This document shows positions 13,601-59,362 of a stretch of 64,000 nt of DNA, in pieces. A program made the position numbers and the translations under genes. The stretch is from contig NZ_JAAATX020000004.1 of assembly GCF_009908265.2 (NCBI RefSeq), positions 186,001 through 250,000 of the forward strand, in the 5' to 3' direction. Source of the stretch: Paragemmobacter amnigenus. Lineage in GTDB: Bacteria; Pseudomonadota; Alphaproteobacteria; Rhodobacterales; Rhodobacteraceae. The notes beneath the pieces are model-generated. The model did not search any database and was not told the DNA's origin. It worked only from the letters and a program-made list of their open reading frames with translations. How positions within the stretch are numbered: position 1 is the first letter of the stretch; every line of letters starts with the position of its first letter.

Positions 13601-13729
13601 CAGGATTTTTCTGGCGAAGAATCCTGCCACGAATGTTCTTGCGAACATTCGTGCTCCGACCACCGACAAGGCCCTGAAATTTCGCAGAAATTTCGCCCCC
13701 AAGATTTTTCGCAAGAAAAATCTTGCCCC
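13601..13729. repeat. Hairpin cluster A2 (four palindromes)
   Basis: Four palindromes in 129 nt: 13601-13626 (11-bp stem with one T-G mismatch, loop TGGC), 13628-13653 (CACGAATGTTC stem, loop TTGC), 13676-13694 (GAAATTTC stem, loop GCA, then GCCCCC) and 13701-13724 (AAGATTTTTC stem, loop GCAA, then GCCCC). The last stem is the same as the second hairpin of cluster A1. Confidence 0.9.
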
Positions 13730-27965: not shown

Positions 27966-28190
27966 CAACGACAGGTTCCGGACCGTGGCCCAAAGCCACG
28001 GTCCGCGCACGTCCTCCCGGCGCGGCCACGGGCCGCGCGTTCGGCGGGGAAATCGTCCACCGGACGATTTCTTTTCCCGCCTCACCCCCACCGGGACGTG
28101 CGCCATGGGCGCCCGCCCCGGCGTGACGCGCGCGGACCTACCGGCGGAGAGGCGAAACGTGCCACTGGCACCTTTCGCCCCTCCTCGCGC
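27966..28190. repeat. Repeat B, copy 1 (inverted relative to copy 2 at 53158)
   Basis: About 225 nt, highly similar to the reverse complement of 53158-53377. It contains at least four hairpins: GGACCGTGGC/GCCACGGTCC (27980-28004), GCGCGGCC/GGCCGCGC with loop ACG (28020-28038), GAAATCGTCC/GGACGATTTC with loop ACC (28049-28071), and GGCGAAA...TTTCGCC around 28151-28179. It fills most of the 364-nt gap between the transglycosylase and the next gene. Confidence 0.9.
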
Positions 28191-40587: not shown

Positions 40588-41565
40588 ATGATCCCCGGCC
40601 TTTCCAACCGACGCCGCTTTTCCGACCTGACGGAACAGGAAATCCTTGCCCTCGCCATCTCGTCCGAGGAAGACGATGCCCGCATTTACCGCAGTTATGC
40701 CGAACGGCTCCGCGCCGAATTCCCCGCCTCTGCCGCCATCTTCGACGGCATGGCAGAAGAAGAGGATCAGCACCGCCAGCGCCTGATCGACCTGCACCGC
40801 ACCCGCTTTGGCGACGTCATCCCCCTGATCCGCCGCGAACATGTCGCGGGCCATTACGCCCGCAAACCCGTCTGGCTGACGGCCAACCTCCCCCTCGACA
40901 CCATCCGCGGCGAGGCGGCGGCGATGGAACAGGAAGCCCACCGCTTCTACACCCGCGCCGCCCAGTCCACGACCGACGCCGCCACCCGCAAACTGCTGGG
41001 CGACCTCGCCGCGGCCGAGGCGGGCCATGAACGCCGCGCGGGCGAACTGACCGACACCCACCTCACCGAAGACGCGCGCAGCGACGAGGACCGCTCCGCC
41101 CGCCGCCAGTTCATCCTGACATGGGTCCAGCCTGGCCTTGCGGGGTTGATGGATGGCTCCGTCTCCACCCTCGCGCCCATCTTCGCCACCGCCTTTGCCA
41201 CGCAGGACACATGGACCACCTTCCTCGTCGGCACCGCCGCATCCGTCGGCGCAGGCATCAGCATGGGCTTCACCGAGGCCGCGCATGACGATGGCGTGCT
41301 GTCCGGTCGCGGCTCCCCTTGGAAACGCGGCCTCGCCTCTGGCGTGATGACCACGCTCGGCGGCATGGGCCACGCGCTGCCCTACCTCATCCCCGATTTC
41401 TGGACCGCCACCACCATCGCCGTGGTCGTCGTCTTCATCGAACTCTGGGCCATCGCATGGATCCAGAACCGCTTCATGGAAACCCCCTTCCTCCGCGCGG
41501 CCTTGCAGGTCGTGCTCGGCGGTGCTCTGGTCTTTGCCGCAGGGGCATTGATCGGAGGGGGCTGA
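40588..41565 (+). CDS. mbfA: Membrane-bound ferritin-like iron exporter MbfA
   Basis: Inner-membrane protein that exports ferrous iron and protects against iron and peroxide stress. It has 325 residues. The N-terminal ferritin-like domain (~1-165) has the expected acid/His ligands: LAISSEEDDARIYRSYAE, MAEEEDQHRQRL, AMEQEAHRFY, AAAEAGHERRAGEL. The C-terminal half (~170-325) is a VIT1/CCC1-type transporter with about five hydrophobic segments (GLMDGSVSTLAPIF, SVGAGISMGFTEAAHDDG). The nitroreductase gene starts 1 nt after its stop. An ICE-like site and two TetR-like palindromes lie upstream, pointing to control by Irr and by another repressor. Confidence 0.93.
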   Translation: MIPGLSNRRRFSDLTEQEILALAISSEEDDARIYRSYAERLRAEFPASAAIFDGMAEEEDQHRQRLIDLHRTRFGDVIPLIRREHVAGHYARKPVWLTANLPLDTIRGEAAAMEQEAHRFYTRAAQSTTDAATRKLLGDLAAAEAGHERRAGELTDTHLTEDARSDEDRSARRQFILTWVQPGLAGLMDGSVSTLAPIFATAFATQDTWTTFLVGTAASVGAGISMGFTEAAHDDGVLSGRGSPWKRGLASGVMTTLGGMGHALPYLIPDFWTATTIAVVVVFIELWAIAWIQNRFMETPFLRAALQVVLGGALVFAAGALIGGG

Positions 41566-41566
41566 C

Positions 41567-42260
<694 letters not shown>

Positions 42261-42271
<11 letters not shown>

Positions 42272-42375
42272 CGCACAAACCGCGCCGGAATTTGACGCAA
42301 ATTCCGGCCCCCGCCCGACCGCGTCACCGCGATTTTTGCATCAAAAATCGCCGCGAAATCTGCGCCAGATTTCGC
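42261..42375. repeat. Hairpin cluster A3 (four perfect 10-bp/3-nt hairpins)
   Basis: Four palindromes with exactly 10-bp perfect stems and 3-nt loops: GCGGTTTGTG-ACG (42261-42283), CCGGAATTTG-ACG (42285-42307), GCGATTTTTG-CAT (42329-42351) and GCGAAATCTG-CGC (42353-42375). Stem sequences all differ; the geometry is constant. The first overlaps the nitroreductase stop codon. Confidence 0.95.
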
Positions 42376-42432
42376 CCCCGCCTCGCACCAGCGCACCGTT
42401 AACCACATATCATGCGCCCATGTGCGGAAATC

Positions 42433-42483
42433 GCGTATGTACAGTTGTCTGCACAGCCTGCGGCACAACCGCCTGCACGGCCC
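42433..42483. repeat. Repeat E, copy 1 (GCGTATGTACAG type)
   Basis: GCGTATGTACAG followed by degenerate CTGCacA/CTGCGGCACAACCG units. A second copy is at 58072. Both lie in gaps beside minus-strand genes. Confidence 0.8.
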
Positions 42484-42490
42484 CGAACCG

Positions 42491-43135
42491 CTAAACCCCC
42501 AACAGCGCAGGCAATTCCGCCATGTCGTTAAACAAAATCGCCCCCTCGGCCAGCAATCCGTCATGCACACCCCTCGGCGCATAGCCGAAACACCGCATCC
42601 CCGCCGCCCGCGCCGCCCGCGCCCCCGCCGCGCTGTCCTCGACCACCACGCAAGCGCTTGGTTCCACCCCCAACCGCCCCGCCGCATGCAGGTAAAGATC
42701 CGGCGCAGGCTTGGGCCGCCCCAGCGCCTGCCCGGAATAAAGATGCCCGCGGAACCGGTCGATCAACCCGTGCTGGCCCAGCGTGATCTGCATCTTCTCG
42801 GGCGTGCCATTGGACCCCATCGCATAGGGAATCCCTGCCGAATCAAGGGCATCCAGCACCCCCACGATCCCCTTCACCAAAGGCACCGACGCCCGCAGCA
42901 TCGCATACATCCGCGCGTAGAAATCGCTCACCCAATCCTCGGGCAACCGCGCCCCATTGGCCCGCGCCTTCTCGGCCACCGTCTCGACCGTCCCGCCGAT
43001 ATAGCCCGCCTCCAGCTCCTCCAGCGTCAGGCGCAGCCCGTATCGCTCCAGATCGTCCCGCACCATGACCAGCGTCGGATGCTCGCTGTCCACGACCACC
43101 CCGTCACAGTCGAAGATCACCGCAGCGGGCCTCAT
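42491..43135 (-). CDS. HAD-superfamily phosphatase (subfamily IA)
   Basis: A 214-residue Mg-dependent hydrolase of the phosphoglycolate phosphatase/beta-phosphoglucomutase group. Motif I is FDCDGVVVDSE with the nucleophile and acid aspartates; motif II GSNGTPEKM; motif III lysine in GRPKPAPDLYL; motif IV VVVEDSAAGARAA. A cap domain lies between residues ~15 and 80. Substrate is not determinable from sequence. Its start overlaps the rsmD stop by 4 nt (ATGA), so it is the last gene of a three-gene overlapping operon. Confidence 0.9.
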   Translation of the reverse strand: MRPAAVIFDCDGVVVDSEHPTLVMVRDDLERYGLRLTLEELEAGYIGGTVETVAEKARANGARLPEDWVSDFYARMYAMLRASVPLVKGIVGVLDALDSAGIPYAMGSNGTPEKMQITLGQHGLIDRFRGHLYSGQALGRPKPAPDLYLHAAGRLGVEPSACVVVEDSAAGARAARAAGMRCFGYAPRGVHDGLLAEGAILFNDMAELPALLGV

Positions 43136-43695
43136 TCCCCCGCCCTCAGGATGGTTACGACCGTATCGCCATAGCTGCGTTGGTCAAGCATATCAAAGCC
43201 TTGCGGAGCCACGGGCGGCACCCCTTCCTCCCACACCACCAGCGCGGACGGCGCGATCCACCCACCCTCGACACAGGAGGCCAGCGCCTTCTCCCCCAGC
43301 CCCATCCGGTACGGAGGGTCCAGAAACACCAGCGAATACCCCGCCCCGCGGTTCGGCCCCATCCGCATCGCATCCCGCCGCCAGACGTCCGTCACCCCCA
43401 TCGTCCGCGTCAACTCGATATTCCGGCGCAGCAGCGCCCGCGCCGCCGCCCCGTCATCGACGAAGGCCACCCGCGACGCCCCCCGCGATACCGCCTCCAG
43501 CCCCAGCGCGCCGGTCCCCGCGAAGAGGTCCAGCACCCGCGCCCCCGTGATCGGGTCGCCATAACCGCCATTTATCAACAGGTTGAAGATCGACTCCCGC
43601 ACGCGGTCCGACGTGGGCCGCAGATGCGCCTTGGCATCCCCCTCGCCCACGGGGGCAAGGTGCAACCCGCGGAACTGGCCGCCGATGATCCTCAT
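43132..43695 (-). CDS. rsmD: 16S rRNA (guanine-966-N2)-methyltransferase RsmD
   Basis: Methylates N2 of G966 in 16S rRNA. The 187-residue protein has the family start MRIIGGQFRGLHL, the RPTSDRVRESIFNLL motif, the SAM-binding VLDLFAGTGALGLEAVSRG and the catalytic NPPY-type motif as FLDPPYRMG. Its ATG overlaps the upstream oxidoreductase stop by 4 nt and its stop overlaps the HAD gene start by 4 nt, so the three genes are translationally coupled. Confidence 0.95.
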   Translation of the reverse strand: MRIIGGQFRGLHLAPVGEGDAKAHLRPTSDRVRESIFNLLINGGYGDPITGARVLDLFAGTGALGLEAVSRGASRVAFVDDGAAARALLRRNIELTRTMGVTDVWRRDAMRMGPNRGAGYSLVFLDPPYRMGLGEKALASCVEGGWIAPSALVVWEEGVPPVAPQGFDMLDQRSYGDTVVTILRAGE

Positions 43696-48036: not shown

Positions 48037-48110
48037 TGCGCGAAAGCGGTTCCTGCGTCAGAGATCGGCGCAATATCTGCGCCGGATTTCGCCCGCGCCG
48101 CCGCCGGACC

Positions 48111-53157: not shown

Positions 53158-53377
53158 GGGAGAGGAAAACGCCCCAGTGGGGCCTTTTCCTGCCCCGCCG
53201 TTAGGTCCGCGCGACCTGCCGGGGCGGGTGCCCATGGCGCACGTCCCGGTGGGGGTGAGGCGGGGCGAGAAATCGTCCGGTGGACGATTTCCCCGCCGAA
53301 CGCGCGGCCCGTGGCCGCGCCGGAAGGTCGTGCGCGGACCGTGGCTTTGGGCCACGGTCCGGAACCCACTGTCACGC
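53158..53377. repeat. Repeat B, copy 2 (inverted relative to copy 1)
   Basis: Reverse-complement homologue of 27966-28190. The GGACCGTGGC, GCGCGGCC and GAAATCGTCC stems are identical to copy 1, but the outer hairpin has AGGAAAA/TTTTCCT arms here instead of GGCGAAA/TTTCGCC, a double compensating change. It occupies most of the gap between the LLM gene and rppH. Confidence 0.9.
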
Positions 53378-59027: not shown

Positions 59028-59362
59028 GCGCGGTGCCCTCGGCCCGACCGGCAGCCCGGTCGTTGGGTCAGAATGGGACAGGACATCGTCCTCCAGAAGT
59101 TGCGCGCCGCCCCGCCCCGGCGCGGGGCTTACCCCACAAGGTAACATCGCGCGCCCCGTATCTCAACGGCACGCGAAGCGCGCGCGATACAGGTGGGCGG
59201 GACAAAGCGCAAGGGCAACACGCGTTTTCTGGGCAAAACGCGTGGCCCCGTTCTTTCTGCGAAAGAACCCCGCCCGCGACATCCCGCGCTCCGGACTCAA
59301 ATGGCACCGATCCTTCGCCAGAAGGATCGCCCCAAGAAATTTCGCCAGAAATTTCTTGCCCC
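59028..59362. other. 335-nt gap between rsfS and the SOUL gene
   Basis: The right 144 nt is hairpin cluster A4. The left part (59028-59215) is GC-rich, contains CGCGCGCG stretches and several short inverted repeats, and must hold the rsfS promoter on the minus strand; no gene is recognised. Confidence 0.6.
59219..59362. repeat. Hairpin cluster A4 (four palindromes)
   Basis: CACGCGTTTT/AAAACGCGTG with a 6-nt loop, then GCCCC (59219-59249); GTTCTTTC/GAAAGAAC with loop TGC (59250-59268); GATCCTTC-GCCA-GAAGGATC then GCCCC (59309-59333), identical to cluster A1; AAGAAATTTC-GCCA-GAAATTTCTT then GCCCC (59334-59362). Confidence 0.93.

Follow-up and report, generated by a model that had tools for sequence, protein, structure and literature searches.

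A family of four-hairpin repeats with covarying stems at gene 3' ends in Paragemmobacter amnigenus and its congeners

The window analysed here is a stretch of 64,000 nucleotides (64 kb) of Paragemmobacter amnigenus DNA, in which a nitroreductase-family gene and a HAD-family hydrolase gene converge on a cluster of four hairpins. The features, in window coordinates, are:

41567..42271, + strand: nitroreductase-family gene (Pfam PF00881), last three residues and stop encoded in hairpin 1
42261..42375, no strand: whole element, a head-to-head inverted pair of a double hairpin
42261..42283, + strand: hairpin 1, 10-bp stem, loop ACG; letters 9-11 (42269-42271) are the nitroreductase TGA stop
42284..42308, + strand: hairpin 2, 11-bp stem, loop ACG; 10-bp core from 42285, 24 nt past hairpin 1
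42309..42328, no strand: central spacer, sequence and length varying among copies
42329..42351, - strand: hairpin 3, 10-bp stem, loop CAT (CGT in most copies)
42353..42375, - strand: hairpin 4, 10-bp stem, loop CGC (CGT in most copies), 24 nt after hairpin 3
42491..43135, - strand: HAD-family hydrolase gene, convergent neighbour, stop 115 nt from the element
48046..48092, - strand: decayed half-copy of the four-hairpin family (covariance model match, 34.8 bits, E 2.1e-5)

The 10-bp cores of the four hairpins begin at 42261, 42285, 42329 and 42353, giving a pitch of 24 nt from the first to the second and from the third to the fourth, and all four stems match SCGRWWTBTG. A sequence-only reading of this DNA had described four perfect 10-bp palindromes with 3-nt loops, the first overlapping the end of the nitroreductase coding sequence; both observations hold, with the correction that the stems measure 10, 11, 10 and 10 bp. 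The nitroreductase reading frame terminates AGC GGT TTG TGA, and since its stop lies inside hairpin 1 the final Ser-Gly-Leu is translated from the 5' arm of that hairpin. The four hairpins are real and beyond chance: when hairpin density was compared with shuffled DNA, as that reading had proposed, the window contained seven 3-nt-loop hairpins with stems of at least 10 bp against 0.3 expected from 20 dinucleotide shuffles. As RNA, the + strand of the element folds into all four hairpins (-58 kcal/mol, z -8.2, equalled by 0/200 shuffles), and the - strand folds likewise (-60.9, z -5.2). The element strand also folds as DNA (-43.8 kcal/mol, z -8.8).

The element is one member of a dispersed family. 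BLASTN with positions 42200-42420 against the source genome (4.14 Mb, 37 contigs) returned 39 matches, the query itself included; the others are 69-96% identical and cover part or all of the unit, and one such place matches by its flank alone, the element being absent. A 47-nt covariance model of the half-element, built from 56 halves, recovers the source-genome copies, in which two-halved copies consist of a + half followed by a - half; in the congener G002 one overlapping pair stands in the opposite order (C1:1379514 and 1379538). Forty places together with the window copy form a set of 41, of which 38 are full-length (at least 90 nt). The common plan comprises two ACG-loop hairpins (apex TGACGCA), a spacer, and two CGT-loop hairpins (apex TGCGTCA), with a 24-nt pitch on each side, the second half being the inverted form of the first. 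All four hairpins stand at exact pitch, each with at least 8 of 10 pairs, in 27 of the 38 full-length copies; a minority of the family's hairpins have 4-nt loops, and some are decayed. The spacer measures 2-30 nt in 34 compact copies and reaches about 100 nt in others. The alignment of halves retains 56 of 61 candidates, which had been pre-filtered by pairing and consensus, and leaves out five spurious or decayed halves, among them the window copy at 48046-48092; the model search that gave this half-copy covered the window and 58 of 80 loci. Across the 56 aligned halves the bases at the stem ends are invariant or nearly so, the frame SCG....TG is common to the family, and variation lies mainly in the five central pairs.

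We conclude that this is a genus-specific interspersed element with about 40 copies in the source genome. The sequence-only reading had taken the stems as unrelated in sequence and beyond explanation by ordinary duplication. The latter claim fails for the unit as a whole, given its 39 BLASTN matches; instead of unrelated singletons, the hairpins belong to one repeated unit, present in about 40 copies in the source genome and found in every one of the 19 genomes of the genus searched. The former is right for the five central pairs and wrong for the shared stem frame and apices. The stems thus recur as a family, as that reading had allowed they might, but no described REP family that we checked fits them. 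A PLSDB search (E 1e-5) returned 0 matches, and hence no plasmid copies.

What the family conserves is structure. Among 54 distinct halves from the source genome, 97.5% of 1080 pair cells hold standard pairs, two-sided changes number 189 where shuffles give 59.8, and covariation scores 0.471 (0.144 in shuffles); the congeners, represented by 86 distinct halves, show 97.5% pairing in 1720 cells, 339 two-sided changes against 105.5 and a score of 0.517 against 0.163. Both pairing percentages are upper estimates, because both sets of halves were chosen partly for pairing. Comparison of orthologous sites is less exposed to this selection. At the places of 25 of the 41 source-genome elements, G002 also has an element, as identified by flanks that are 69-91% identical. 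The comparison kept the 12 of 24 pairs with four 10-bp hairpins (at least 8/10 paired) in both genomes, a set that leaves out the pair formed by the window copy and L123. Its 480 cells comprise 413 unchanged, 38 compensated, 6 with uncompensated two-sided changes, and 23 with one-sided changes, namely 6 G-U pairs and 17 mismatches, 10 of the latter at the outermost pair, which is often unpaired in the family. In one compensated change GCGATTTCTG became GCGAAAACTG and in another GCGAAATCTG became GCGAAATATG, the 3' arm being altered to match each time. The earlier proposal that the structure itself is the shared property is therefore borne out, and the compensating substitutions that it had suggested looking for are present between species. 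The pairing is probably kept by selection. When the outermost pair is set aside, 14 of 2520 cells hold G-U and 7 hold A-C. Di Nocera et al. (PMC3733652) point to G-T pairs in REP stems as a sign of transcription; in the four-hairpin family that sign is weak.

The copies are not distributed at random with respect to genes, as called by a home-made codon-usage gene finder self-trained on the window and its relatives. A gene 3' end lies within 20 nt of 36 of 42 source-genome copies (the 41 plus the decayed window copy; 35/41 without it), whereas a 5' end is equally near in 4 of 42; six of the 42 are more than 20 nt from any 3' end. Among 55 3' edges, twelve fall at exactly -11 relative to the stop, six each at -1 and 1, and three at 0, and in all twelve of the -11 cases the stop is TGA at hairpin letters 9-11. 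Seventeen of the 42 copies lie between convergent genes, 21 between tandem genes, and 4 between divergent genes. Random insertion into the 52 intergenic gaps of the window would put 10% of copies no more than 20 nt from a 3' end and 42% at divergent positions (binomial P about 5e-30 and 3e-6, respectively, for copies that are not fully independent). In G002, 33 of 40 places have the 3' end of a gene no more than 20 nt away and 1 of 40 is near a 5' end, no copy among the 40 lies within a predicted gene, and the contexts are 15 convergent, 20 tandem and 5 divergent, several of these places being known by one half alone. For elements touched by a single gene end, orientation is mixed (12 versus 7), and this lack of a clear preference led us to reject the idea that the adjoining gene dictates orientation. 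Separately, in 34 source-genome copies the strand that reads outward is C-rich both beyond the element and where the spacer begins, a composition that might suit Rho loading.

The nitroreductase locus can be followed through the genus. The gene is present in 14 of 19 genomes (E up to 1e-60), and its 3' side was read in the source genome and 13 others. Its convergent junction with the HAD gene, as judged by eye from the downstream DNA, is kept in seven (the source genome, G002, G010, G008, G003, G007 and G011), and all seven have an element there, with differing stems and some decayed hairpins. Hairpin 1 at this junction is of the GTTTG, GTTCC or ATTTC type, and its closing pair in G007 is now T-A. 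In G017 the element follows the nitroreductase gene and the downstream gene is different; in G018 and G006 an element lies upstream of the gene instead; and in G012, G014, G015 and G016 no element was found in the stretch examined around it. The protein has 230-231 residues in six congeners with no element behind the gene, against 234 in the source genome; it also has 230-231 in G007, G011 and G017, where the stop stands ahead of the element. The intergenic region of G003, G007 and G011 is essentially the element alone, which suggests that the element was retained while other DNA was lost. As a separate observation, in L043 (3170-3245, the place corresponding to L129) direct repeats of the last nitroreductase codons and stop, about 23 nt each, precede the element.

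Two further places, read in the congeners with strong flank matches, show turnover. At locus A (C1:112697 in the source genome; seven congeners examined) G014, G006 and G018 have full elements, the first with an extra right half; G010 has a single hairpin, G002 and G017 have decayed remnants, and G008 has none. At locus B (C2:122024; eight congeners) G012 and G014 have full elements, G018 and G006 have remnants, and G010, G005, G008 and G002 carry GGATGGGC-type palindromes, decayed in G002; two of these palindromes are GTAG-ended. From such mixed states we infer that the element has been both gained and lost and that another hairpin can replace it; its decay or absence in G002, G017 and G008 indicates that it is dispensable at locus A. 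At that locus, the two inner hairpins of L038 appear exchanged relative to L183, L187 and L188, as if the element or its inside had been flipped in place. GTAG-ended palindromes were seen in congeners at L124 10165-10192, L125 10995-11020, L128 16337-16362, L193 and L194 (GTAGGATGGGCA..TGCCCATCCTAC, GTAGGGTGCGC..GCGCACCCTAC), and at locus B such a palindrome occupies the place of the source genome's four-hairpin element.

The family extends unevenly beyond the genus. In a search of 61 genomes (E up to 0.01), whose strict filters and capped number of candidates make all counts lower bounds, 19 of 19 genomes of the genus matched (G004 by one match), as did at least 4 of 18 from other genera of the family, and none of 24 from other families was among the matches listed. 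Of 198 genomes sampled across the family, 19 matched at E up to 1e-4, two of them in the genus; G219, G189 and G020 had 8-18 matches and 14 genomes had 1-4. A scan by geometry alone of the same 80 loci (416,783 bases) found six adjacent pairs of perfect hairpins, where five shuffles gave 0.0; each of the six is at most 51 nt from the 3' end of a predicted gene. Other apices are seen in three of them (L058, Tabrizicola thermarum; L078, Frigidibacter; L047, a Rhodobacteraceae MAG), which, judged by record names, come from outside the genus; the pair in L078 lies behind that genome's own nitroreductase gene. The window itself holds other palindromes. A different tandem-hairpin family, with CGATCCTTC.gcca beside CAAGAWWTTTC.gca stems, occurs at 1819-1869, 13676-13725 and 59308-59358, two of the three places being within 8 nt of a gene 3' end; at 13676-13725 a 3' end is 100 nt away and a 5' end 20 nt away. 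A three-palindrome cluster with stems CGGACCGTGGC, GCGCGGCC and GAAATCGTCC is present in inverted orientations at 27979-28071 and 53269-53361.

We favour, with a probability of roughly 0.6, the reading that the element is a bidirectional RNA structure of gene 3' ends, serving as a terminator and/or an exonuclease barrier. RNA polymerase leaving a gene would transcribe the element and produce strong hairpins on either strand; these would end transcription and/or protect transcripts by blocking 3'-5' exonucleases, and one element could serve both genes of a convergent pair. This reading builds on what is directly observed of the family, namely its geometry, covariation, 3'-end location, and conservation and turnover at orthologous places. 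We count in its favour the proportion of copies at 3' ends in both genomes relative to the 10% expected at random, the deficit of divergent sites (4/42 against 42%), the twelve -11 edges whose TGA stop is supplied by the hairpin, and the stem covariation, which also holds at orthologous sites. The 25 of 41 elements shared in place with G002, the presence of an element with differing stems at 7 of 7 nitroreductase/HAD junctions, the occurrence of a different palindrome at the same place in other species (locus B), and the mixed orientation together with the folding of both RNA strands count in the same direction. Against it we count the six copies distant from any 3' end, the dispensability seen at locus A, and the rarity of G-U pairs (14/2520), which would be expected if one RNA strand were selected. 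Also counted against it are a terminator pattern scan of 41500-43200, which gave one hit, not above the 1.4 of shuffles, and the lack of a U-tract after the hairpins, which are followed by C-rich DNA instead; because no U-tract follows, the element is not a canonical intrinsic terminator. Whether clusters of hairpins free of U-tracts end transcription in GC-rich alphaproteobacteria could be tested here with few experiments.

A broader proposal, which we hold only tentatively, is that the gene-end signal is defined by structure as such: selection would fix the geometry (stems of 10 bp, loops of 3 nt, a 24-nt pitch and two hairpins on each side) and the unlikeness of neighbouring stems while letters drift in compensated pairs, and other genera, as well as different palindrome families at a single junction, would use the same device with unrelated sequences. 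It is supported by L047, L058 and L078, where perfect hairpins with different apices stand in tandem at the 3' ends of genes. Adjacent hairpins with the same 5-nt core occur in 0 of 140 distinct halves, against 12.8 expected on shuffling of the pooled set, and stem positions 5-6 alternate between TT and AA in adjacent hairpins in 102 of the 140, seven having the same polarity. The effect resides in the 74 halves with inner cores that do not start with GA (0 identical cores against 9.5 expected); there is none in the 66 with inner cores that do (0 against 0.01). Tests on whole elements used 27 (unoriented) and 25 (oriented) of the 38 full-length copies. With the 25 oriented consistently, 7 equal pairs against 9.4 is not significant, and the mean Hamming distance gives P 0.003; the unoriented test (four different cores in 21/27 elements against 15.2 expected) is not relied on. 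Strict four-way TT/AA alternation holds in 12 of the 38, a count made in a fixed register that misreads 4-nt-loop copies. Because the excess is small once elements are oriented, common descent explains part of the stem difference; that unlike neighbours keep adjacent arms from mispairing is a lead. Kissing of ACG and CGT loops was considered and rejected (hairpins 1 and 4 complementary in 18/27 against 17.5 in shuffles; hairpins 2 and 3 in 16/27 against 13.8, P 0.17). Paired REPs are often of unlike units, a feature for which Di Nocera et al. (PMC3733652) see no obvious explanation, and the four-hairpin family makes testable why such units are so often combined.

Rather unlikely, in our view, is that the element is a selfish REP- or MITE-like palindromic repeat, spread by a putative enzyme and surviving chiefly behind stop codons, where it does least harm, its pairing serving its own mobilisation. 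Dispersed copies, presence, absence and decay between species, the lack of copies inside predicted genes in G002, and the uneven spread among genera would all fit such a repeat. However, the Y1 transposase domain (PF01797, RAYT) was above cut-off in 0 of 19 genus genomes, some of them draft assemblies, with a single sub-threshold match (G008, 21.3 bits against a cut-off of 23), and five of 14 control genomes were above cut-off, the E. coli control having Y1 proteins; on this ground RAYT mobilisation of the element was rejected. A REPIN is a RAYT-mobilised REP dimer. Adjacent direct repeats of at least 4 nt flank 0 of 34 copies, so that target-site duplications are lacking and the element is not a typical MITE. 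The sharing of 25 of 41 copies with G002 also argues against a selfish repeat, as do the bare-element intergenic regions of three species, which suggest retention while other DNA was lost.

Translational control is improbable as the main role. A hairpin at the stop codon would stall terminating ribosomes and lower expression of the upstream gene, an effect reported for those E. coli REPs that lie no more than 15 nt from a stop (PMC12306157). That so many element edges fall -11, -1, 0 or 1 from the stop accords with this, but it leaves unexplained why the unit is an inverted pair, why each half has a second hairpin and why the arrangement is bidirectional; such control may coexist with a 3'-end role. 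Less probable again is templated repair, in which correction of quasi-palindromes by template switching keeps them perfect and compensates changes in one step with no functional selection. It would account for the 38 compensated against 23 one-sided changes (13 of the 23 at the outermost pair) between the source genome and G002 and for the rarity of G-U intermediates; yet that comparison was limited to well-paired hairpins, which favours the compensated pattern, correction is not universal because decayed copies exist, and the gene-end location, fixed 24-nt pitch and conserved stem frame go unexplained. The least probable alternative, a DNA-level cruciform or protein-binding site (gyrase, nucleoid protein) where transcription-driven supercoiling collects, fits the folding of the strand as DNA, the conserved apex TGACGCA, the mixed orientation and the few G-U pairs, but a duplex-binding protein would conserve letters, not pairing, and the avoidance of divergent regions (4/42) and closeness to stop codons point to transcripts.

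The four-hairpin element resembles several known systems. The earlier statement that no named repeat family fits stands: Rfam gave 0 matches at gathering thresholds in the 64-kb window, the defining features of GTAG and CGTC REPs are lacking, and a literature search by titles and abstract openings, its coverage leaving out most subscription papers, found no description of the family. CGTC REPs (PMC3733652) are short palindromes found chiefly in alphaproteobacteria. Most form head-to-head dimers whose spacer varies; they have no dedicated transposase and often lie no more than 20 bp from the 3' end of a gene, in convergent or unidirectional settings. The present family likewise consists mostly of head-to-head dimers by gene 3' ends with no associated transposase. 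By definition, however, CGTC REPs carry an unpaired CGTC (or TGTC or CCTC) at one end, stems of 8-9 bp opening with A-T pairs, loops of 4-5 nt, and a CCA tail. Here the 12 nt that flank each end of 34 copies contain no conserved tetranucleotide, and so no CGTC, TGTC or CCTC tag; CGT(C) forms the loop and closing pair, the 10-bp stems start with SCG, the loops are mostly 3 nt (in a minority 4), there is no conserved tail, each mate has two hairpins at 24-nt pitch, and G-U pairs are few. The inverted pair of palindromes at gene ends also recalls GTAG REPs and RAYT-mobilised dimers (PMC3733652), in which tagged ends often supply a TAG stop as the hairpin supplies TGA here; unlike them, the 34 source-genome copies have no terminal GTAG tag, and this covarying gene-end family sits in an alphaproteobacterial genus with no Y1/RAYT above cut-off. 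From E. coli REPs, palindromes within 15-20 nt of stop codons proposed to act on translation and mRNA (PMC12306157), it differs in sequence and architecture, and the E. coli control genome has Y1 proteins where the genus has none above cut-off. Hairpin-cluster terminators (Gupta and Pal 2021, PMC8355165) are clusters, most often of two hairpins, near stop codons in GC-rich genomes with no poly-U trail, which their authors report is not necessary; the present family similarly has two or more hairpins, separated by under 15 nt, shortly after a stop codon. Those terminators were inferred gene by gene, whereas here a single repeated family, known from DNA alone, has a fixed geometry and an inverted pair. 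On these sequence comparisons, the four-hairpin element is probably a new, untagged, double-hairpin REP/BIME-like family, a variety of a known class of repeats.
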